NCBI GenBank assembly: GCA_902623185.1
Contig: CACNSW010000013.1
Coordinates: 1-46,801 of the forward strand
DNA length: 46,801 bases
Source of the DNA: an uncultured SAR116 cluster alpha proteobacterium
Lineage (GTDB): Bacteria > Pseudomonadota > Alphaproteobacteria > Puniceispirillales > Puniceispirillaceae
Reading direction: 5' to 3'
The stretch's first letter is position 1; every line of letters begins with the position of its first letter. Shown piece after piece: positions 165 through 11,122 of this stretch. The translations under genes were made by a program, and so were the position numbers. The notes under the pieces are model-generated. The model made no database searches. It had not been told where the DNA came from and was given only the letters and a program-made list of their open reading frames with translations.

Positions 165-623
165 ATGATGGAACTTGCAGACGAAATAGTAATACCAGCC
201 AAACGAGATTCGGTATATGCAGGCCTAAATAACATTAAAATTCTGAGAAAATGTATCCCAGGTTGTGAAGAACTGGTAGCCATAAGCGACACTGAATTGA
301 CTGCCAAAGTTGTTCTAAAAATCGGCCCCGTAAAAGCTAGCTTTAACGGTACAGTCACACTCGATAAGACGCGCGCACCCCAATGTTTCAGTCTCAGTGG
401 TCAGGGTGATGGTGGGGTCGCAGGTTTTGCTATGGGTGGAGCAGAGGTTGAATTGATCGAGGATGCAAGCAGCACAATCCTCAAATACGCTGCTAAAGCA
501 GAAACCGGTGGCAAGATTGCCCAGCTTGGCAACCGTCTGATTACCAGCACTGCCAAAAAGCTATCAAAACAATTCTTTGGTAATTTTGAGGCAGAAATGA
601 CACGGGACAAAGCAAAGGATTGA
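165..623 (+). CDS. coxG: CoxG-like SRPBCC-fold protein (CO dehydrogenase subunit G family)
   Basis: A 152-residue protein whose whole length resembles the CoxG family: an N-terminal stretch on excluding and counting ligand (IPGCEEL near residues 33-39), the IGPVKASFNG core, and a glycine-rich GDGGVAGFAMGG segment. CoxG proteins have a START/SRPBCC fold and are linked to maturation or membrane anchoring of molybdenum CO dehydrogenase; they are not catalytic. Two ATG codons stand in tandem. The second, at 168, is better spaced from the GGAG at 158-161, so the true start may be one codon later. It is convergent with the MobA-like gene and lies in a cluster of molybdenum-hydroxylase genes. No signal peptide or membrane helix is visible. 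CoxG-like proteins also accompany other xanthine-oxidase-family enzymes, so the link to CO itself is not proven. Confidence 0.85.
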   Translation: MMELADEIVIPAKRDSVYAGLNNIKILRKCIPGCEELVAISDTELTAKVVLKIGPVKASFNGTVTLDKTRAPQCFSLSGQGDGGVAGFAMGGAEVELIEDASSTILKYAAKAETGGKIAQLGNRLITSTAKKLSKQFFGNFEAEMTRDKAKD

Positions 624-658
624 TGGGTGCGGACTAGCTTGTGATGTCAACTCTGCTC

Positions 659-1285
659 CTAATCTTCCTCGATCTGTGATAGGGCGATCGGTGTGTCAAC
701 ATCAAAATGAATGCTGTCATCCGGCCATCCCAAACTGTTCAACGCATTTTTGTTTTCCGCAACAATGGTCCGCCCGCCTGCATCGCCAGTCAATGCCATC
801 AACCTGTCAAAAAATCCACGTCCCCATATCACGGGATTGCCCCGCTTCCCATCAAAAATAGGCAGTGTGATCCGATTCGGCGCATCGGTTAGGCCCGCGT
901 GATCTCGCAGCAGTGTTGCAATCAAATCTGATGTCACCCGCGGCATGTCCCCCAGCGCAATCAAGACTGCCTCATGAGTGCTAGCCTGATAATGGCGTAC
1001 ACCACAAGCCACCGATGAGGCCTGGCCAGACTGATAATCCTCATTATAGACGCATGTGACCGACAAGTCGGCGAGGGCAGCGGCGACTAGTTGATGTTCG
1101 TAGCCGGTGACAACAACTAGATCATTCAAACCACTCTCAACCAGCGCAAGGGTTGTTTGCCGGATAATTGGAACACCATTTATCAATGCCAGCAACTTAT
1201 TCTGCGATCCCATCCTTTGCGATTGTCCAGCGGCCAGAATTACCCCACCAATGGTTGCATTTGATATCCGCGACGTATTCACCAT
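659..1285 (-). CDS. MobA-like nucleotidyltransferase (MocA / CoxD-context molybdenum cofactor cytidylyltransferase type)
   Basis: A 208-residue NTP-transferase. The signature VILAAGQSQRMG lies at residues 15-26 and is followed by a conserved lysine (QNKLL); the metal-binding GDMP motif is near residue 112. The family includes MocA, which joins CMP to molybdopterin to form the cytosine dinucleotide cofactor used by xanthine-oxidase-family enzymes. Its place between coxG and an XdhC gene supports that role. The frame can be read back to a TTG at 1300, but the ATG at 1285 is the more likely start. The gene ends 36 bp from coxG, facing it, with no clear terminator between. A MobA activity (GMP transfer) cannot be excluded from sequence alone. 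Confidence 0.85.
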   Translation of the reverse strand: MVNTSRISNATIGGVILAAGQSQRMGSQNKLLALINGVPIIRQTTLALVESGLNDLVVVTGYEHQLVAAALADLSVTCVYNEDYQSGQASSVACGVRHYQASTHEAVLIALGDMPRVTSDLIATLLRDHAGLTDAPNRITLPIFDGKRGNPVIWGRGFFDRLMALTGDAGGRTIVAENKNALNSLGWPDDSIHFDVDTPIALSQIEED

Positions 1286-1331
1286 TTTGTGATACCCCAA
1301 TCAAATCTATAGGAACTTACTCCTCTTTCAA

Positions 1332-2312
1332 TCATTGTGATAGCTGAGGCATTCTCTCAGCGGCAATCATCTCAGCAAGGATTGAAACAGCAATTTCCGC
1401 TGGCGTCAGGGCGCCGATGCGCAACCCGGCAGGCCCTCGCAATCGTTGCAGGTTAACCGTATCAAATCCAGCCTCACTCAATCTGGCGCACCTGGCCGCG
1501 TGTGTCCGGCAAGACCCTAAACAAGCTATATAAAATGCATCACTGGCTAACGCCACTTTAAGACTTATATCATCAATTTTAGCATCATGCGTTAACGTAA
1601 CGACCGCTGTTCTTCCATCCAATTCAAGGGTAGGCATTATCTCATCGGGCCAACCCATAACGCAGTCTATCCCAGGAAATCGCTCGGCGACTATAAAGAC
1701 TTCACGAGGATCAACAACAGTGACACCATATCCAGCAAGTTTTGCCATCTGCGCTAGAAATTGCGTAATATGGACTCCTCCAACGATTATAACTCTTCGT
1801 GGGGGAGTATACACAAAGTAAAACAGGTTTGATGCCTCATCGAAAAAACTGTTTTTATGCAAGTACAATGATGATTGGTGCACAAGTTTTCCATCCTCAA
1901 CATCTAGACAAAGCGTAACTGTGCGCCGTGCCATTGCGTCAGCGGAAAAGCGTGCGATTATCTCTCTTTCAACTCCACCAAATCCTAACGGCGATACCAG
2001 AACTGCAATCTGGCCACCACAGGACAGACCCACGCCCCACGCTGTTTCATTTGTGACTCCAAAATTGAGGCGCCGCCCCACATTGGTTTTGATTGCATTG
2101 ATACCAGCTTCAATCACAGCACTCTCAACACATCCTCCAGACACTGACCCTTCAACGAGCATGTCGTCACGGATAATCATAGTGCTTCCGATAGGCCGCG
2201 GTGACGATCCCCACGTCTGGATGACAAAGGCAAGCGCTACACCATGGCCGTTGGAATGCCAATCTAATGCGCGATCAAAAAGTGAGATTTCCATTGGGCT
2301 AATGTCAAACAT
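1332..2312 (-). CDS. XdhC/CoxI family molybdenum-enzyme maturation factor
   Basis: A 326-residue protein of two XdhC parts. The N-terminal domain carries SVSGGCVES (glycines and cysteine near residues 59-61), and the C-terminal Rossmann-like domain begins around VIIVGGVHI and continues to VTLTHDAKIDD. XdhC binds molybdenum cofactor, promotes insertion of the terminal sulfido ligand and protects the cofactor until it enters the apo-enzyme; CoxI and CoxF are relatives in CO dehydrogenase clusters. The ATG at 2312 is chosen over an upstream TTG at 2339 because a GGA-containing ribosome site lies 7 bases before it. It reads in the same direction as the MobA-like gene, 46 bp upstream, and diverges from the 2Fe-2S subunit gene. 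Confidence 0.88.
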   Translation of the reverse strand: MFDISPMEISLFDRALDWHSNGHGVALAFVIQTWGSSPRPIGSTMIIRDDMLVEGSVSGGCVESAVIEAGINAIKTNVGRRLNFGVTNETAWGVGLSCGGQIAVLVSPLGFGGVEREIIARFSADAMARRTVTLCLDVEDGKLVHQSSLYLHKNSFFDEASNLFYFVYTPPRRVIIVGGVHITQFLAQMAKLAGYGVTVVDPREVFIVAERFPGIDCVMGWPDEIMPTLELDGRTAVVTLTHDAKIDDISLKVALASDAFYIACLGSCRTHAARCARLSEAGFDTVNLQRLRGPAGLRIGALTPAEIAVSILAEMIAAERMPQLSQ

Positions 2313-2676
2313 ACTTCGTTCCACACTTGTCTTATTCAATCCGCGCCGTTTTTTGAACCATGCGTAGTGCCGTCATTGATTGGCTGATTGCAGTTAACAG
2401 CGTAGGGTGAATAAATCCAACGCATCTCAAAAGTTTCACAATGAATCCAAAAGTAAAAAATAGGCCTTTGACAAAACAACAAACATTTCCTGGTAAACGC
2501 CTACAGACGAAGGCTTTGAAAAGCAACTGATCATTATCTCTGATACCCGTTAGCTTTTCATAGGTTCAAACATTCAACTTTACTCAGTGACAAAATCATC
2601 ACAGCATGCTTTGAATTAGGTAATTAAATCACGACGCGGTGCATAAAAAAATGAAAACCGCAATATTTAAAGAAAA
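2313..2676. other. Divergent intergenic region between xdhC-like and coxS-like genes
   Basis: This AT-rich gap of about 360 bp must hold the promoters of the two divergent cox-type units. I see no convincing -35/-10 pair, operator palindrome or RNA gene. A 29-codon, lysine-rich reading frame begins at the ATG at 2441 on the plus strand, and a 64-codon frame runs across on the minus strand. Neither has a recognisable product or a good ribosome site, so neither is called. Confidence 0.5.
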
Positions 2677-3147
2677 ATGGCAATCGTAGATTTCAAATTT
2701 AATGGTGAGTCAGTAAGCGCGGATGTCCCTGACAATACGCTACTGGTTGATTTCATCCGAGAGACGCTCGGCAAAACAGGAACCCATGTCGGTTGTGACA
2801 CCAGCCAATGTGGGGCCTGTGTCATTCATCTAAATGGTGTCTCGATAAAGTCATGTACTATGTTAGCAGTGATGGCAAATGGTCAAGAAATTACCTCAAT
2901 TGAAGGAATTGCTGGTGGTAAACGGATGCATCCTATGCAAGAAGCCTTTCATGAAAATCATGGTCTGCAATGCGGTTTTTGTACACCTGGAATGATTATG
3001 AGTGCCATTGAGTTGGTATCAAACAAACCTAATTTGACAGAGCAGGAAATCCGTGAAGGCCTCGAGGGTAATCTTTGTCGTTGCACGGGTTACCACAACA
3101 TAATTCAGTCAGTACAGTCAGCCGCGCGTGCTATGAGAGAAGATTGA
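2677..3147 (+). CDS. coxS: Xanthine-oxidase-family 2Fe-2S subunit (CoxS-like)
   Basis: A 156-residue iron-sulfur subunit with both expected clusters. The plant-type site has cysteines 40, 45, 48 and 60 (CDTSQCGAC ... C), and the C-terminal helical site has C99, C102, C134 and C136 (CGFC ... CRC). Length matches CoxS, NdhS and similar small subunits. It transfers electrons from the molybdenum site of the large subunit to FAD in the medium subunit. The start is an ATG with a weak AAAGAAA ribosome site. The FAD-subunit gene follows after 82 bp. The usual large molybdopterin subunit gene is not next to it and is not in the window. The true substrate could be CO, an aldehyde or an N-heterocycle. 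Confidence 0.93.
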
Positions 3148-3229
3148 CATGCCCATGACAATAACGTGTTAATGGGTGCCTAAGAGCATCAGCCGAGATC
3201 AAACCAGAGTTATGGAGTGAAACAGAACT

Positions 3230-4033
3230 TTGTATCAGACAAACTATATCAGAGCCTCAAGCACGAATGATGCTATAGCAAAACTTGGCGATGATGGAAA
3301 ACTAATCGCTGGCGGCATGACCTTACTACCTATCATGAAGCAGCGCCTTGCGCGTCCAAAGATGCTCGTGGACCTTGCTGACTGCGGCCTCGCAGGAATA
3401 GAAGATCTTGGTGATACAATTAAAATTGGATCAATGACAACTCATGTGGATGTCGAAACATCACAAATTGTAGCGAATGGTATTCCAGCACTAGCGACAT
3501 TAGCTGCAAAAATTGGCGACCGACAGGTACGAAATCGCGGCACTATTGGTGGATCAATTGCCAATAATGACCCTTCAGCATGCTATCCTTCAGCGGTTCT
3601 TGCGCTTCGAGCAACAATTCATACCAGCAACCGTGACATCGTCGCTGATGATTTTTTCATGGGCATGTTTGAAACGTCTCTTGAAGACAATGAAATCATC
3701 ACAGCAATCAGCTTTCCAAAGCCCACAGCGGCCGCCTACGCCAAGTTTCCAAATCCGGCATCACGCTTTGCCATGGTCGGCGTTTTTGTAGCTAAAAGCG
3801 AAACGGTGCGTGTTGCTGTTACAGGTGCAGGTGAGGATGGCGTTTTCCGTCATGAAGCATTGGAAATAGCGCTTACCGACCTGTTTGCTCCAGATGCTGT
3901 TGAATCTATAATCATAAGTAGTGATGAACTAATTAATGACATCCACGCCCCACGTGATTATCGCGCTCATCTCATTAAGGAAATGACAAAACGCGCTGTG
4001 ACAGCATGTAATCAATCACAATTTGTGTCCTAA
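3230..4033 (+). CDS. coxM: Xanthine-oxidase-family FAD-binding subunit (CoxM-like)
   Basis: A 267-residue FAD_binding_5/CO_deh_flav_C protein. The two FAD motifs of the family are readable: AGG at residues 27-29 (AGGMTLLPIM) and TIGG at 105-108 followed by SIANNDPSA. It passes electrons from the 2Fe-2S subunit to the final acceptor. The start is TTG: an in-frame TGA lies three codons upstream, and GGAGTG is 11 bases before the TTG. The N-terminus MYQTNYIRAS matches family N-termini. It is slightly shorter than CoxM of carboxidotrophs (about 290). The gene order S then M without L differs from canonical coxMSL, and a strong hairpin follows the stop codon. Confidence 0.92.
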   Translation: MYQTNYIRASSTNDAIAKLGDDGKLIAGGMTLLPIMKQRLARPKMLVDLADCGLAGIEDLGDTIKIGSMTTHVDVETSQIVANGIPALATLAAKIGDRQVRNRGTIGGSIANNDPSACYPSAVLALRATIHTSNRDIVADDFFMGMFETSLEDNEIITAISFPKPTAAAYAKFPNPASRFAMVGVFVAKSETVRVAVTGAGEDGVFRHEALEIALTDLFAPDAVESIIISSDELINDIHAPRDYRAHLIKEMTKRAVTACNQSQFVS

Positions 4034-4274: not shown

Positions 4275-5066
4275 ATGAAAATTACTTTTCACGGTGTTCG
4301 CGGCTCTGTTCCCACATGTGGGGCAGAATTTTCAGAATTTGGAGGACACACTACTTGTATCGAATTGATGACAGATGAGGCCCAAATCATTTTGGACGCA
4401 GGTAGTGGTTTTCAGAATATCAAAATTCGTAATGATCGGCCCGTGATCATCTTGTTAAGCCATTTTCATCATGACCATATACAAGGATTAGGCTTCAACC
4501 GGGGTCTATTTTCCAGACAATGCGAAATTTTTATCTCTTCGGCGCTTTGCTCCGGCGAAGAAACCCACGGCTACATCCAGAGTTATTATGGTAGCAAATT
4601 TTTTCCAGTCGACCTTTTGTCTGAAATCCCACACCTAAAAATCAAGACTTTCAATGAAGTAAAGTCGATTTTTGCTCAGGCTTTCTATCTCAATACCTAC
4701 CAACTTAATCATCCTGGAGACTGCGCCGCCTACAGTATTGAAACTGCAACTACCAAGCTTTGCTGCCTTCTTGACAACGAATATAAGGAGAGTCAACTGG
4801 AGGGTCTCGTTGGCTTCACGGAAGGTGCAGAGTTGGCAATTTGGGATGGGATGTTTACTGATAATGAGCTAGAAAAATTTCTAGGCTGGGGTCATTCATC
4901 AATTGAGCAGGGAATAAGATTTCTGGATCAAACCAACTGCAAGCAACTCGCAATCACTCATCACGCTCCAGAACGTACAGATTATCAGCTAAGAAAAATA
5001 AAAAAAATAATAAGAAATCCTGATGTTTTTCTTGCTCACCAAAATCAGGGGATCCATCTCGGATAA
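4275..5066 (+). CDS. Metallo-beta-lactamase-fold hydrolase, cyclic-nucleotide phosphodiesterase-like
   Basis: A 263-residue MBL-fold protein with the N-terminal GVRGSVP-type opening of the COG1235/TaR3-like group, DAGSG near residue 41, and the metal motif HFHHDH at residues 63-68. Later metal ligands are plausible in LNHPGDC, LLDNE and the C-terminal THHAPERTD. Several proteins of this group hydrolyse phosphodiesters, and its genes often neighbour cNMP-binding domains. A good ribosome site (AAGGAAGG) precedes the ATG. The cNMP-binding gene begins 12 bp after the stop, so the two are very likely co-transcribed. I infer, but cannot show, that the pair degrades and senses the product of the nearby cyclases. 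Confidence 0.85.
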   Translation: MKITFHGVRGSVPTCGAEFSEFGGHTTCIELMTDEAQIILDAGSGFQNIKIRNDRPVIILLSHFHHDHIQGLGFNRGLFSRQCEIFISSALCSGEETHGYIQSYYGSKFFPVDLLSEIPHLKIKTFNEVKSIFAQAFYLNTYQLNHPGDCAAYSIETATTKLCCLLDNEYKESQLEGLVGFTEGAELAIWDGMFTDNELEKFLGWGHSSIEQGIRFLDQTNCKQLAITHHAPERTDYQLRKIKKIIRNPDVFLAHQNQGIHLG

Positions 5067-5077
5067 AGGGCAGCCCA

Positions 5078-5419
5078 ATGCAAAAACAAACTTTAAAACA
5101 ACATCAAACAATTTTTAAAGCTGGTGACACAGCTGGAACGGTGTTCCTCCTTGCAAGGGGATCCGTTGGCATATTTTTACCAACAAACGAAACCAAAGAT
5201 CCAAACTTTGTAATCCGCGAAAATGAGATCTTTGGAGAAATGGGCGTGATTGATGACGAACTCCGTATGGCTGATGCCAGATGCCTTGAAGAATGTGATG
5301 TCATTTCAGTGACAAAAGACGAGTTCAACACCTACCTCAATGAATCAAACATTTTTGTTCGCGGTGTAGTGGGAATTCTTTCCGACCGGTTGAGAAAAAT
5401 TCAAAAACCATCCAAGTAA
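5078..5419 (+). CDS. Stand-alone cyclic nucleotide-binding domain protein
   Basis: A 113-residue protein that is almost only a CNB (Crp-like) beta-roll: GDTAGTVFLLARGSVGIF near residues 16-33, then the phosphate-binding cassette FGEMGVIDDELRMADARC with its Glu and Arg, then a short C-terminal helix. There is no DNA-binding helix-turn-helix, kinase or channel part, so it should act as a cNMP-responsive partner of another protein. It is closely coupled to the upstream MBL hydrolase gene and lies within 6 kb of two cyclase genes. A role as regulatory subunit of the MBL enzyme is an inference from that coupling. Confidence 0.85.
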   Translation: MQKQTLKQHQTIFKAGDTAGTVFLLARGSVGIFLPTNETKDPNFVIRENEIFGEMGVIDDELRMADARCLEECDVISVTKDEFNTYLNESNIFVRGVVGILSDRLRKIQKPSK

Positions 5420-5460
5420 AGCCATTAGTAATTACGCTCTACCCTTGGATATTTTTATTA

Positions 5461-6618
5461 TTAATCGACGTGTTCCCACCATTTATCATTTGTTGGCAAT
5501 TCTGATAAGTCAACAAACTGGCCCAACAGCGGAGTCAGCACGCTCACATTTCTTTTTGCCGCTTCAGCAAGCACACGGACCGGAGGTTCAAACCAATCAT
5601 GCATTGATAATGTGAACATCCCCCAATGGATAGGCACCAATAGCTGACCATCCATATCTAGAACCGCCTGTACGGCTTCTTCTGGCATGTTGTGCACATA
5701 ACGCCAACGAGTGTTGTATTGACCAGAGTCCATGAAGACTAAGTCAACAGATCCGTAACGTTCACCAATCTCCCGGTAATGTTCAGCATAGCCGGAATCA
5801 CCACTGAAATAGACCGACTTGCCCAATGATTGAATCAGCCATGACGCCCACAACGATCGCTTTTCCTTATAAGGTCCCCTACGCCCAGAAAAATGCTGCG
5901 AGGGAGTGCAGATCAGATTCAAGCCATCAATCTGGGCCTCCTCCCACCAATCAAGCTCGGTAATTTTTTCAGGCGAGACGCCCCAACGTTCCAAATGTGC
6001 CCTTAACCCTAACGGGACAACAAAGCTGATGCCTTTGCTGCGCAACTGCTTAATTGTTTCCATATCGAGGTGGTCATAATGGTCATGCGAGACAACGACA
6101 ATGTCGACATCTGGAAGGGATGCTAAATCAATCACCGGTGGTTGGAAACGTTTAACAACAAAGCTCAAAGGTGACGCAGCATTTGAAAATATCGGGTCAA
6201 AGAGAACCACTTTATCATTGATGGACATTAGGATGGTGGAATGACCAAGCCAAACAAATTTTATATTTCCTGCACTTTCATGAAAGTCACTAGGCAATGG
6301 CGCTTTGCTTTCAGGCAACAAACCATCAGGCCGTGTTTTGTTAGTGTTAAAGAAGAAATTATTATTCCAGTTTTCCATAGGGTTATCCCAAAACCCAGGC
6401 CCGGACAGGACCGCATCCTGTTCCAGATTAACAAATTTATCCTCGCTTAAATTATAGTTTTCAGATTTTTTTATCCGCAGATAGCTATTGCCAGACGGCA
6501 ATGCACCAAACTGCTCACACCCCGAAAGATGAGAAAAAACAATTAATAGGCCAATGATCAGAACAAAAGTCACCCGGCGCAAATTCTTCTTCTTTTTTCT
6601 TCTGCACCGATACACCAT
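5461..6618 (-). CDS. Lipoprotein with metallo-beta-lactamase (NAPE-PLD/UlaG-like) domain
   Basis: A 385-residue protein. A very basic N-terminus (five lysines and several arginines) is followed by a hydrophobic stretch and the lipobox LSGC, with Cys34 as the predicted lipidated residue. The rest is an MBL domain of the NAPE-phospholipase-D type: LGHSTILM, LFDPIFS, VVVSHDHYDHLD, YFSGDSGY and a late HWGMF. Members cleave phosphodiester or lactone bonds, and some act on N-acyl-phosphatidylethanolamines. Export and lipidation place it at the cell envelope. It is convergent with the cNMP-binding gene and lies just downstream of the 7TM cyclase gene in the same direction (36 bp). Its true substrate is unknown. 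Confidence 0.85.
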   Translation of the reverse strand: MVYRCRRKKKKNLRRVTFVLIIGLLIVFSHLSGCEQFGALPSGNSYLRIKKSENYNLSEDKFVNLEQDAVLSGPGFWDNPMENWNNNFFFNTNKTRPDGLLPESKAPLPSDFHESAGNIKFVWLGHSTILMSINDKVVLFDPIFSNAASPLSFVVKRFQPPVIDLASLPDVDIVVVSHDHYDHLDMETIKQLRSKGISFVVPLGLRAHLERWGVSPEKITELDWWEEAQIDGLNLICTPSQHFSGRRGPYKEKRSLWASWLIQSLGKSVYFSGDSGYAEHYREIGERYGSVDLVFMDSGQYNTRWRYVHNMPEEAVQAVLDMDGQLLVPIHWGMFTLSMHDWFEPPVRVLAEAAKRNVSVLTPLLGQFVDLSELPTNDKWWEHVD

Positions 6619-6654
6619 TAATTGAATTACCTCACTGAACTGATTTTACATCAA

Positions 6655-8862
6655 TCACTTCGTCTCAAGCCTCTCAACTCCGTCCCAAGTCTTTGGGTTC
6701 CAACCCTCCTCGAGCAGTCTCTCGCAACGCTCTACAAAGAGTCTCGCAACAATATCATTTTCACCACTTAACAAGATAGCTTGGAATAGGTCGCGAGCCT
6801 TAGCAAATTTCTGGTTTTTATAAAGAGACATTGCTTCGTTGAATTGCGGCAGATCATCCCGTTTTGATCTGGCAATTTGTGGGGGTTCTGCATCAATCAC
6901 TTCAAAAACTTTGACCGGTCTGTCTTTACCCTTCACCACAACGCTATCGATTTCACGGCAGACAGTTTTGGCAGTGTCCAACTTCCTGAATGTATGTTCT
7001 GAGATAATGACCTTTGACCCGTAACGCTTGGTAAGCCCTTCCAGTCTTGAGGCTAGATTGACAGAATCGCTAATAACCGACCCTTCCATCCGGTCTGACT
7101 CACCAAGAGTGCCAAGCATCATCCGGCCCGAATTGATTCCGATGCCAACATTGATTCTTGGTGCCCCAGTTTTTTCCTGCTCATCGTTATAGCGATAAAG
7201 CTCCATTTGCATTTCAATCGCAGCTTTGACGGCATCTGCCGCCGAATCTGGAAACAAAGCCATCACCCCATCACCCATGAATTTATCGATATAACCGTTG
7301 TGAGCCCTGATGATTGGACCCACAAGACTTAAATATGCATTCACAAAAGCAAAGTTTTCGCCCGGTGACATGGCCTCAGAAATTTCTGTAAAAGATCTTA
7401 TGTCAGAGAACATTATACTCATCTCAACGACAACCTGATCACCAAGCCTAACGTCAAGTATACTATTCCTGCCCAGGTTCTTCAGCAACTGCGGCGGCAC
7501 GAAACGCTGATAAGCTTTGGTGAGGCTTATCTGCTGAGTCAATGCGAGATTTTTCATATCATTTAATTGCTGTGCCACGGCAAAACCAAATGTGATGAAC
7601 ATTGCCAACATCAAAAAGCCAACAACAGCCGATATTACCATCCAGGCTTGCCAGGAAAAACCAAATGCAAGAAACGTCACTCCAGTTATTGGCACAGCTA
7701 GGAATGGCAGGGCAAAGGAAATCATCAAAAATTTTGCATAGTTGCTGCCACGCCGCCATAATATAAAAGACAAAATTGCCGATCCAAGTAATAACAGCAA
7801 AAATGGTGGAATCAGGAAGCTTAGCTTTATAATACCTGGTCCCGCGCGGTCTGGAGGGTGTGCCACCAGGTCTAGGTAGGGTGCGCTTGGATAAGTCAGT
7901 GAAGATCCAACATGTACAAAAACAGAGATCAAATAGAAAGCGATTCCTAAAAGAAAAACCCGGTTGAGGAATGGGAAGTTATTGGGCAAATCAAGAGAAG
8001 TTCTAAAGAATTGGATCAGAAGCACAAAAAGCAGCGAAGTTGATGCCATACCCATCTCGACGTTGGACAGCCATAACGGCGGCATAATCACTGACGAAAG
8101 CGCCAAATACAAACAAGAATGGATAGAAATCTGAAACAGGCTTGCTGAAAGCCAAAAATAGCTGCCACGCCCTACCACGAACATAAACAAATAATAAAGG
8201 CCAAAAGCAGTGGCAATTGCGACAACTATTAGGTTGGTCGCCAGCCGGAAAAATTCGAGGAGACGAATGTCGTTCCATTTGCCAACAGTTATTCGATCAA
8301 GCCCATCGACCTTGCTAAAATATCTGTCAAAAGGTTTGCTGCGGAAAAAATTATAGATTGTGGTGATTTCACCTTGGGGCATCATCACAAGATAATGTTC
8401 ATTTAGTCTACCCTCATCAATCCAGTTATCCTTGCTGCTTGACCAGTAAGGGTACTCCACAACTCCACCGCTATGGTGGGCAAAAATCCGTTTTTCCTTG
8501 TTGAAATTATGTTTGATCCCAACGGCATCAGTAGGGAGTGTATTCTGGATACGCAAACGGACCCAATAGCCCTCTACAAGGGACTGATCCGCATGAAGTT
8601 TTGGCGCCCACTCAGCCTCTTTCAGGAATTCAAAAGTTGCTGTCTCATCAGCGCCCTCGAGGAATTCTAAATGAGTTGCTGGAATGGTTGCTGGCCCCCC
8701 TTCAGGAATAATAAAAACGGGGGATTGACGACCAAGTTGTTCGGAATGAGCCTGAAAAATAACTGTAACGGAAAAAAGTAAAGTTAGAGAGAGACCTTTA
8801 GAGTTTTTTAACCTCCGAAAAATTTTAATTAAATTTAACTTGAAAAAATTACTTTGGACCAC
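6655..8862 (-). CDS. Membrane class III adenylate/guanylate cyclase with 7TMR-DISM sensor
   Basis: A 735-residue receptor cyclase. A basic N-terminus and hydrophobic segment (residues about 24-37) lead into an extracytoplasmic 7TMR-DISMED2-like beta domain (about 50-190), then seven hydrophobic helices (about 207-430), then a class III catalytic domain (about 475-660). The metal aspartates are D487 in FSDIRSFT and D531 in MGDGVMALF; VNLASRLEG supplies the Asn/Arg of the active site. The C-terminal 70 residues look like a single TPR-like helical unit. It should make cAMP (or cGMP) in response to an external carbohydrate-like or other ligand. The start is GTG, with a GGGG-containing site upstream. 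It lies between an MBL lipoprotein gene and a second cyclase gene, all in the same direction. Confidence 0.92.
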   Translation of the reverse strand: MVQSNFFKLNLIKIFRRLKNSKGLSLTLLFSVTVIFQAHSEQLGRQSPVFIIPEGGPATIPATHLEFLEGADETATFEFLKEAEWAPKLHADQSLVEGYWVRLRIQNTLPTDAVGIKHNFNKEKRIFAHHSGGVVEYPYWSSSKDNWIDEGRLNEHYLVMMPQGEITTIYNFFRSKPFDRYFSKVDGLDRITVGKWNDIRLLEFFRLATNLIVVAIATAFGLYYLFMFVVGRGSYFWLSASLFQISIHSCLYLALSSVIMPPLWLSNVEMGMASTSLLFVLLIQFFRTSLDLPNNFPFLNRVFLLGIAFYLISVFVHVGSSLTYPSAPYLDLVAHPPDRAGPGIIKLSFLIPPFLLLLLGSAILSFILWRRGSNYAKFLMISFALPFLAVPITGVTFLAFGFSWQAWMVISAVVGFLMLAMFITFGFAVAQQLNDMKNLALTQQISLTKAYQRFVPPQLLKNLGRNSILDVRLGDQVVVEMSIMFSDIRSFTEISEAMSPGENFAFVNAYLSLVGPIIRAHNGYIDKFMGDGVMALFPDSAADAVKAAIEMQMELYRYNDEQEKTGAPRINVGIGINSGRMMLGTLGESDRMEGSVISDSVNLASRLEGLTKRYGSKVIISEHTFRKLDTAKTVCREIDSVVVKGKDRPVKVFEVIDAEPPQIARSKRDDLPQFNEAMSLYKNQKFAKARDLFQAILLSGENDIVARLFVERCERLLEEGWNPKTWDGVERLETK

Positions 8863-8948
8863 AAATGTTCAATCCCCACCCACTTTAGGCAACAGCATAA
8901 AGTCACAAATCCGCTACTGTATCATATTGCTCAACATCATTTTTTTCA

Positions 8949-10712
8949 TCAACTTGGCATTCCAGCTTTAGCAAGCCCACTCATCACATAGTCTTTGGCA
9001 AGGGTTGGAACAACCTTTTCATAGTCACGCAGAGTCTTAATCTCAGGGCGTTTTTCTAAAAACACAGCTAGTGATTTTTCTGCCTCTTCCATGTTTCCAA
9101 GGTGCGCCTCAACAGCCGCTAACCAACCGTACCAACGACTATGGCCACTTTTGTCACGGAATAAAGTCACCCATCGTTTCGCATTTTCAGAATCTTTCAT
9201 ACCCAGATAAATCAGTGGTAAAAAGCCTTCATATTTACTCCGGCCTAAAGGGTCTAAATCGATTGCTTTCTGGAGATAAATTAAGGCTTCATCATACCGG
9301 CCAAAACTTGTAATCGCCATTGCAAGGTCTTGATTTGCAGCGGGGTTACTTGGGTTTAAATCGAGAGCCAATTCTGCAAATTCAACCCTCTTTTCAAAAT
9401 CACCCCGCAAATTGAAAGAGCGGCTCAGCATTATCACAGCCTCTGGATTATTTGGATTTAAATCATAGGCTTTCTGCGCCAGCCTATGAAAAAGCTGTTC
9501 GTGGTCACCACGCTTTTCGGGTTCTCTTTGGTCAAAAATCCAGTTTGTTAGGGAACGGCATTGAAGCGTGTAAGCCTCACAAAAATTCGAATCCAACGCA
9601 ACTGCAGCTTCACATTTCAAGGCAATTTCTGGGTATTTTGGATCAAAATCGTTGAAAAGGCTCAATGCTTGCAGATACAAATCCCAAGCTGACAAATCAG
9701 TTGTTTTTTTTGACAGCAACCCTCGGCTATGCTCTTTGCCTTTAAGTGCCGGCACAATGAGCACCGCAACTGATTGCGAAACTTCATCCTGAACTTCAAA
9801 TATATCGTCCAAAGGACGATCCCATCTTTGTGACCATATTTGTTGATCATCTATTGCATCGATCAAATTGGCCGTAATCCTAACCTTACTGCCCCCCTTG
9901 CGAACGCTCCCAGTCACCAAATAACGAGCACCCATTTCTTGAGCAATCATAGATGATTTGAGGTTCGAGTCTTTGTAAGTAAAGCTGGTGTTGCGTGCAA
10001 TCACGGGGAAGGTTTTCCAACTAGAGAGATTGGCAATAATGTCTTCTGAAATTCCATCAGCAAAGTAATCCTGGTCGGGATCGTTACTTTGATTCACAAA
10101 CGGTAACACAGCAATCGTTGGCGGCGTTGATAATGTGCCTTTTGTCTCATTTTTTTCATTGGTCTGATTTTTGCCACGCTGGCTGGTGCCATCAAGGACC
10201 ATATCATACGCCCTCACTATCGTATTCTTGACCTGTTGATCACCAATATCAATGAAATTCAATTCAACTTTCTGACTTACAAAATCATGGACACCTTTCG
10301 AGAGGCAAACGCTATCAGGCTGCGCGAGCGCCTCCAAACGCGCCGCCACATTAACACCGTCACCATATAAATTTTGGTTTTCAACAATCACATCACCCAT
10401 ATTGATGCCAACGCGAAATCTCATTTGCGCGTCTTTGTTATCCAAGGCCGAATTACGTTGCTTAATAAGCTTTTGAAATTCTGACGCACAAATCACTGCA
10501 GAAACAGCGCTTTGAAACTCCGCAAGAACAGAATCTCCTGCAGTATTAAAAATTCTACCGCCATGTTCTTCAAACAAATTGTCAAGGATCTCTTTACAAG
10601 ATCTAAAACTGCGCAAAGTTTGTTCCTCATTTTGTTCCATGAGTTTGCTGAACCCGACAGCATCTGTCACGAATATGACAGCAATTTTCCGTACTATATT
10701 ATTTTCCAACAT
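8949..10712 (-). CDS. Class III adenylate cyclase fused to TolB-like and TPR regions
   Basis: A 587-residue soluble protein. The N-terminal class III cyclase domain (about 5-175) has FVTDAVGFSKLM with metal Asp17, TAGDSVLAEF with Asp60, and GDGVNVAARLE. A TolB-N-like segment follows (about 197-320; TIAVLPF, YFADGISEDI, GARYLVTGSV), and then TPR repeats (about 330-585) such as NPNNPEAVIMLSRSFNLRG. This architecture is common in rhizobia and other alphaproteobacteria, with many copies per genome; few have a known ligand. The ATG at 10712 is preferred over a GTG at 10724 because AGGGTG is 9 bases before it. The gene stops 86 bp before the 7TM cyclase gene on the same strand. Confidence 0.9.
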   Translation of the reverse strand: MLENNIVRKIAVIFVTDAVGFSKLMEQNEEQTLRSFRSCKEILDNLFEEHGGRIFNTAGDSVLAEFQSAVSAVICASEFQKLIKQRNSALDNKDAQMRFRVGINMGDVIVENQNLYGDGVNVAARLEALAQPDSVCLSKGVHDFVSQKVELNFIDIGDQQVKNTIVRAYDMVLDGTSQRGKNQTNEKNETKGTLSTPPTIAVLPFVNQSNDPDQDYFADGISEDIIANLSSWKTFPVIARNTSFTYKDSNLKSSMIAQEMGARYLVTGSVRKGGSKVRITANLIDAIDDQQIWSQRWDRPLDDIFEVQDEVSQSVAVLIVPALKGKEHSRGLLSKKTTDLSAWDLYLQALSLFNDFDPKYPEIALKCEAAVALDSNFCEAYTLQCRSLTNWIFDQREPEKRGDHEQLFHRLAQKAYDLNPNNPEAVIMLSRSFNLRGDFEKRVEFAELALDLNPSNPAANQDLAMAITSFGRYDEALIYLQKAIDLDPLGRSKYEGFLPLIYLGMKDSENAKRWVTLFRDKSGHSRWYGWLAAVEAHLGNMEEAEKSLAVFLEKRPEIKTLRDYEKVVPTLAKDYVMSGLAKAGMPS

Positions 10713-11122
10713 TTCATCAAACACCCTACGCTTGTCTCACTTTATTAATTTTTATCTCCTACTAATCACGGCCCAACGCATTAAATCTGTTTAGGTAATA
10801 TCCATTCTGTCATGACTATGCCCTGTTTAGCATTTGGGACAAAATCAGGAAATAGAAGCAAAAAAATCAAGCTTAAGTCGATATTTTTTTGCTCAGGATA
10901 AACATAACTTCATTAAAGTTGTCTAAGGTTCGCAGCTTTGCAATCGTAGGGTCAAGAGTTTGACGGTAATCGTCGATGGTTTTTAACTAATGTGCTGCAA
11001 GTTAATTTTCTGGATAGCACTTTAAGCGAGAGTACAGAAGGCAATGACAACCCCTTTGCATTTTTTGACTGGACACATTGTAGTAGAATGACGGCGGCGC
11101 CCATTTATTCGGAGTATTTGCT
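10713..11122. other. Divergent gap between the TPR cyclase and the PfkB kinase genes
   Basis: This stretch should hold the promoters of the two divergent genes. On the minus strand, about 10875-10990, a 37-codon frame between two stops reads like protein (it includes TIDDYRQTLDPTIAKLRTL) but has no start codon at its head. It may be a gene remnant or chance. The kinase gene has a good CGGAG ribosome site 8 bases before its ATG. I see no RNA gene or convincing operator. Confidence 0.4.

Follow-up and report, generated by a model that had tools for sequence, protein, structure and literature searches.

A conserved pairing of a metallo-beta-lactamase hydrolase with a stand-alone cyclic nucleotide-binding protein at a class III cyclase locus of a SAR116-cluster alphaproteobacterium: a candidate off-switch for cyclic nucleotide signalling

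Introduction

Bacterial phosphodiesterases (PDEs) of the metallo-beta-lactamase (MBL) fold include Rv1339, YhfI and CpdA, which share a [T/S]HxHxDH motif and on that basis have been classed as atypical class II PDEs (PMC9293780); the preferred substrates of YhfI are cAMP and cGMP (PMC9117128). GbpA and GbpB are MBL PDEs that are activated when a cyclic nucleotide (cNMP) binds to their attached cyclic nucleotide-binding (CNB) domains (PMC11988041). Our literature search found no paper on a bacterial MBL-CNB pair, and no description of how marine bacteria of the SAR116 type read cAMP or cGMP. Here we report on a locus of such a bacterium in which genes for an MBL hydrolase and a CNB protein lie beside two class III cyclase genes, and we discuss what the pair may do. 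The stretch of DNA analysed, 46,801 nucleotides long, is referred to as the window.

Layout of the locus

The locus consists of two conserved modules, MBL1 with CNB and the 7TM cyclase with MBL2, beside a gene for a cyclase-TolB_N-TPR protein (Table 1). All five open reading frames and their named domains, as described in the initial annotation, are confirmed by the ORF list and by Pfam; the cyclase-TolB_N-TPR frame has an alternative ATG start at 10712, where the initial annotation had let the locus end. Eleven bases (5067-5077) separate MBL1 from CNB. The source genome measures 1.76 Mb and is 65% complete, and the four nearest relatives of MBL1 are found in genomes of the SAR116 cluster. Immediately upstream of MBL1 (window 165-4033) are encoded CoxG, MobA-like, XdhC-like, 2Fe-2S and FAD subunits of a CO-dehydrogenase-type enzyme.

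Table 1. Genes of the cyclic nucleotide locus, with their positions in the window
Gene	Position	Strand	Domains	Assignment
MBL1	4275-5066	+	PF12706	Hydrolase of the metallo-beta-lactamase fold, cytosolic; probably an atypical class II phosphodiesterase for 3',5'-cyclic nucleotides
CNB	5078-5419	+	PF00027	Single cyclic nucleotide-binding domain, 113 residues; probably senses cNMP as the partner of MBL1
MBL2	5461-6618	-	PF12706	NAPE-PLD-like lipoprotein; gene 2 of the receptor-cyclase module
7TM cyclase	6655-8862	-	PF00211	Receptor-like class III cyclase
cyclase-TolB_N-TPR	8949-10724	-	PF00211, TolB_N, TPR (Pfam)	Class III cyclase

MBL1, a putative cyclic nucleotide phosphodiesterase

The Pfam domain of MBL1 scores 42 bits against a cut-off of 27, and the top sequence match among solved structures is B. 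subtilis YhfI (6kns). The metal motif is present as SHFHHDH at residues 62-68, and its HFHHDH portion (63-68) had rightly been assigned to this protein in the initial annotation. Across 16 aligned sequences (relatives of 40-61% identity) its His and Asp residues do not vary, and neither do H146, D167 and H229, among which are the metal site's bridging Asp and distal His; phmmer aligns D167 with a metal-site Asp of YhfI. MBL1 further carries the motifs NHPG, LLDNE, WDGMF, GWGHSS and THHAP, and WDGM, GWGHSS and HH.P.R.D are likewise kept across the 16 sequences.

The AlphaFold model of MBL1 (pLDDT 91, pTM 0.91) has RNase Z, YhfI, ELAC1, PhnP, Apyc1 and yeast PDE1 as its fold neighbours, with a Z of about 20 for Apyc1 and with RNase Z tying with the top matches, and the substrate does not follow from the fold by itself. 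RNase Z is also the top NCBIfam match (TIGR02651), but at 55 of 293 bits MBL1 misses the cut-off and was rejected as a member. The curated model for cyclic nucleotide PDEs, NF041851, gives 27 of 400 bits, again below its cut-off; this model is a narrow equivalog, and MBL1 is therefore not filed as a member but as an enzyme that may work like one. The putative hydrolysis of cNMPs by MBL1, suggested in the initial annotation, draws support from the relationship to YhfI and from the cyclase linkage described below. A search of viral contigs for relatives of MBL1 returned one distant relative, 27% identical, on an IMG/VR contig of 273 kb (L034).

CNB, a stand-alone domain and probable sensor

The PF00027 match of CNB (57.6 bits) covers the whole domain, residues 4-89 of 113, and so leaves the protein without an output domain, in agreement with the initial annotation. 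Its phosphate-binding cassette reads FGEMGVIDDELRMA, and the cassette Gly, Glu54 and Arg63 are invariant in all 24 aligned sequences (FGEMGV...RMA), an invariance from which cNMP binding by CNB is to be expected. The nearest bacterial solved structure is the CNB domain of Bd1971 (E 2e-12), a CNB-EAL c-di-GMP phosphodiesterase under cAMP regulation. At a different site the genome encodes another stand-alone CNB from this subfamily (L001:1483-1851, + strand), with no MBL gene in the neighbouring DNA examined.

Conservation of the MBL1-CNB pair

The MBL1 clade was sampled at 80 loci from GTDB species, 78 of which include downstream DNA. CNB is the next co-directional gene in 63/78 and lies within 2 kb of MBL1 in five further loci. 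In the 63 adjacent loci the two genes usually abut or overlap, the gap between open reading frames, measured by the first possible start, ranging from -101 to +30 bases and mostly from -13 to +19. In a tree that also holds the wider MBL family of the Alphaproteobacteria the clade is monophyletic (100/100), and only a few losses or rearrangements account for the distribution of adjacency. The wider family, present in about half of the alphaproteobacterial genomes sampled, served as a control: within 8 kb flanks a CNB gene was found at 0/20 loci and a cyclase at 3/20 (Fisher 9e-12 for CNB and 1e-4 for cyclase).

The pairing has its exceptions. At four loci (L053, L057, L096, L097) a cyclase is kept while the CNB neighbour of MBL1 is gone, and CNB is therefore not obligatory; at five others (L072, L080, L081, L099, L114) the CNB gene is separate from MBL1 yet sits beside cyclases. 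Near some MBL1/cyclase clusters that have no small CNB gene, a CNB domain forms the N-terminus of an HlyD-type, membrane-fusion-like protein (L087:16498-18561, - strand; also L093, L103 and L106), and control of secretion by cNMPs is a possible function of such proteins.

A second pairing and other regulated forms of the MBL domain

A second pairing, in which CNB lies directly upstream of MBL, occurs at nine loci from families f177 and f182 of other Alphaproteobacteria, recovered among wider-family matches in a phylum sample. Its CNB belongs to a different subfamily, with an RTA cassette and an N-terminal extension. The arrangement is not universal, since loci of genus g291 (f177) and family f74 lack it. 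A co-directional cyclase follows downstream in 7/9 loci: in L221 and L246 it is the next gene, giving a CNB-MBL-cyclase run, and in the remaining five it stands 4-5 kb away, with intervening genes in L249, the one read. Together, the 63/78 adjacent loci and this opposite-order pairing are the reverse of the rare joint conservation that, according to the initial annotation, would have spoken against an MBL-CNB association.

The MBL domain of the wider family is also fused to a receiver (REC) domain in L217 (Pfam), which eight further loci resemble in length and in the position of the MBL domain, and to a GAF domain in L226; the MBL catalytic domain thus serves as an output under regulation. Long frames recovered with the CNB and MBL profiles were inspected for a natural MBL-CNB fusion; they yielded REC-MBL and GAF-MBL proteins and CNB domains with other partners, but no such fusion. 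Taking the second pairing and the REC and GAF fusions together, the MBL domain has therefore been coupled to regulators repeatedly.

Linkage to cyclases and cyclic nucleotide effectors

Linkage to cyclases was assessed in the 23 genomes of the order that carry MBL1. Their 26 MBL1 genes include 19 with a class III cyclase no more than 8 kb away, where the density of cyclases would predict 1.0 (Poisson-binomial P about 1.7e-23, kinship ignored), and nine of ten genera hold at least one linked case. Five loci show an MBL-CNB-cyclase run. The neighbouring cyclases bear unrelated sensors (7TM, Sdh_cyt-Fer2 with its 2Fe-2S domain, receiver, GAF-GAF-PAS and alpha/beta hydrolase), and the association therefore does not stem from one inherited block. 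A chance neighbourhood can also be dismissed, both the wider-family control and the cyclase-density expectation being far exceeded. In S. meliloti the class III enzyme SpdA has been studied as a component of cAMP signalling, yet its substrates as a phosphodiesterase are 2',3'-cNMPs (PMC4222275), so linkage of this kind does not by itself give the substrate of MBL1.

No CRP-type protein (PF00027 with PF13545/HTH_Crp_2) was found in the searched genomes of the window's genus, a 96%-complete relative included, so the cNMP output in this genus probably does not run through CRP. Many CNB frames stand alone or carry other fusion partners. In the genus' best class III cyclase match (G000:C11:4672-5199, and its equivalents in G001-G003) there is one internal TAA.

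The receptor cyclase module

The 7TM cyclase has an extracytoplasmic N-terminus and seven hydrophobic segments at residues 199-427. The Pfam models for 7TMR-DISM gave no match (E up to 1), and the 7TM assignment therefore rests on hydropathy. Its catalytic domain retains both metal Asp residues, the Lys and Asp of the adenylate cyclase type and the Asn/Arg pair. In the cyclase-TolB_N-TPR protein an Asn replaces the purine-selecting Lys (FNTAGD), which makes its product uncertain.

MBL2 has one hydrophobic segment, a lipobox (LSGC, residues 31-34) that is kept in 9/10 orthologues, and a metal motif, HDHYDH, at 178. Its residues 116-355 match human NAPE-PLD (4qn9) with an E of 1.3e-50. The initial annotation had treated the two MBL proteins as one kind, which does not hold: MBL1 is RNase Z/YhfI-like and MBL2 NAPE-PLD-like, and by homology MBL2 is not a cNMP hydrolase. 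All 10 orthologous MBL2 genes come right after a 7TM cyclase gene, including those in genomes with MBL1-CNB elsewhere; in eight more distant homologues the 7TM cyclase neighbour is absent from the DNA examined. The proposed tie between MBL2 and the receptor cyclase is supported by this gene order, but the protein's own homology is to a phospholipase D, and an action on the outside signal, as suggested in the initial annotation, is at most a possibility. A single, joint cyclic nucleotide locus with two MBL hydrolases was rejected because MBL2 goes with the 7TM cyclase rather than with MBL1, as four genomes illustrate. Module 2 is a separate conserved pair of a receptor cyclase and an envelope lipase-like protein, evolutionarily separable from module 1, and it offers a lead of its own, no less testable, to what such receptors sense.

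A model for the pair and its alternatives

We propose that MBL1 and CNB form a cNMP-degrading off-switch in which CNB reports the nucleotide level to MBL1, a reading in which our confidence is evenly balanced. Cyclases fed by unlike sensors, module 2 providing one of several inputs to the circuit of module 1, would raise cAMP (or cGMP); MBL1, as a putative dinuclear-zinc phosphodiesterase, would open the 3',5'-cyclic phosphate; and CNB, on binding the same nucleotide, would alter the activity of MBL1, most likely by activating it, and so exert negative feedback. Gene content, the conserved pairing, the linkage to cyclases, the intact motifs of catalysis and binding and the predicted MBL1 fold come directly from the analysis; the metal content, the substrate, the nucleotide bound by CNB, the direct contact and the sign of the regulation are what we infer in this scheme. 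That the two proteins are subunits of one regulated hydrolase, as first suggested in the initial annotation, is plausible and has strong comparative support in the 63/78 adjacency and the second pairing; as to physical contact, the AlphaFold model of an artificial chain (L040), made by reading through the MBL1 stop and aligned with in-frame relatives (12 rows, artificial linker), gave a pTM of 0.67, compared with 0.91 for MBL1 on its own, and no confident docking, a result that with so few rows and such a linker weighs little in either direction.

Alternatively, MBL1 might be a cNMP phosphodiesterase next to a CNB that is an independent effector or buffer, merely co-expressed and acting on another target. 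The five loci where CNB has parted from MBL1 yet remains beside cyclases fit this idea, as do the unconfident read-through docking, the additional CNB from this subfamily at another site in the genome, and a genus without CRP-type proteins (PF00027 + PF13545), which would need another cNMP effector. In most loci, however, it is MBL1 that CNB trails and not the cyclase, with genes that overlap or abut, and the CNB-MBL pairing has a second instance in other Alphaproteobacteria; we consider an independent CNB rather unlikely. It is a good deal less probable still that MBL1 cleaves another phosphodiester (a 2',3'-cNMP, a cyclic oligonucleotide or RNA ends) and is tuned by CNB according to the cNMP level. 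RNase Z does provide the strongest NCBIfam match and one of the best fold matches, and SpdA shows that a PDE in a cAMP-signalling setting can have another substrate (PMC4222275), but the RNase Z score falls far from its cut-off, the nearest solved sequence is that of a cAMP/cGMP enzyme, and MBL1 is strongly linked to cyclases with many unlike sensors.

The PADLOC models PycC and PycTIR match the cyclases and CNB through shared domains, which could point to a Pycsar-like anti-phage system. The combination of a cyclase with a CNB-toxic effector protein is not what we find: CNB has no effector domain, be it TIR or TM, the cyclases bear ordinary sensor domains, a dedicated signal hydrolase would be odd, and inheritance is stably syntenic across genera. 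Pycsar defence was accordingly rejected, and even a Pycsar-like role seems extremely improbable. Returning to MBL1 and CNB as an off-switch, we tentatively extend the proposal, with somewhat less confidence, to a two-subunit, feedback-regulated MBL phosphodiesterase of the Alphaproteobacteria that occurs in at least two gene orders, is a split counterpart of the cGMP-stimulated PDEs of Dictyostelium, and serves many sensor cyclases as a shared off-module where CRP is absent. If true, a conserved cassette of cyclase, MBL phosphodiesterase and CNB would constitute a testable non-transcriptional circuit, and would present in bacteria, split over two genes, an allosteric design for which the descriptions to date come from an amoeba.

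Comparison with known systems

MBL1 shares PF12706, the [T/S]HxHxDH motif and a length of about 250 residues with the atypical class II PDEs YhfI of B. subtilis, CpdA of C. glutamicum and Rv1339 of M. tuberculosis. Unlike these it has conserved WDGMF and GWGHSS motifs of its own and falls far under the NF041851 cut-off, and whereas a CNB gene adjoins MBL1, no CNB partner of the three is described in the literature searched. Apyc1 is also of the MBL fold and cleaves cyclic mononucleotides (PMC9117128), but it is a broad-specificity enzyme without a sensor subunit, a phage tool for evading defence. NAPE-PLD has a catalytic domain with HxHxDH that is homologous to that of MBL2; MBL2 differs in being a lipoprotein of bacterial origin with a receptor cyclase as its genetic partner. 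Bdellovibrio Bd1971 resembles the window pair in coupling a CNB domain to a phosphodiesterase, and differs in its EAL catalytic fold, its substrate and the fusion of its CNB domain. The closest precedent for an MBL-type PDE coupled to CNB domains is provided by GbpA and GbpB, the class IIb cGMP/cAMP-stimulated PDEs of Dictyostelium, which we compare here by description. Membership of class IIb would call for an MBL domain joined to two CNB domains within a single protein, and the window pair has another make-up. The amoebal enzymes are single polypeptides with two CNB domains each, whereas the bacterial system comprises two genes and one CNB domain, and would share with them activation by the bound nucleotide.
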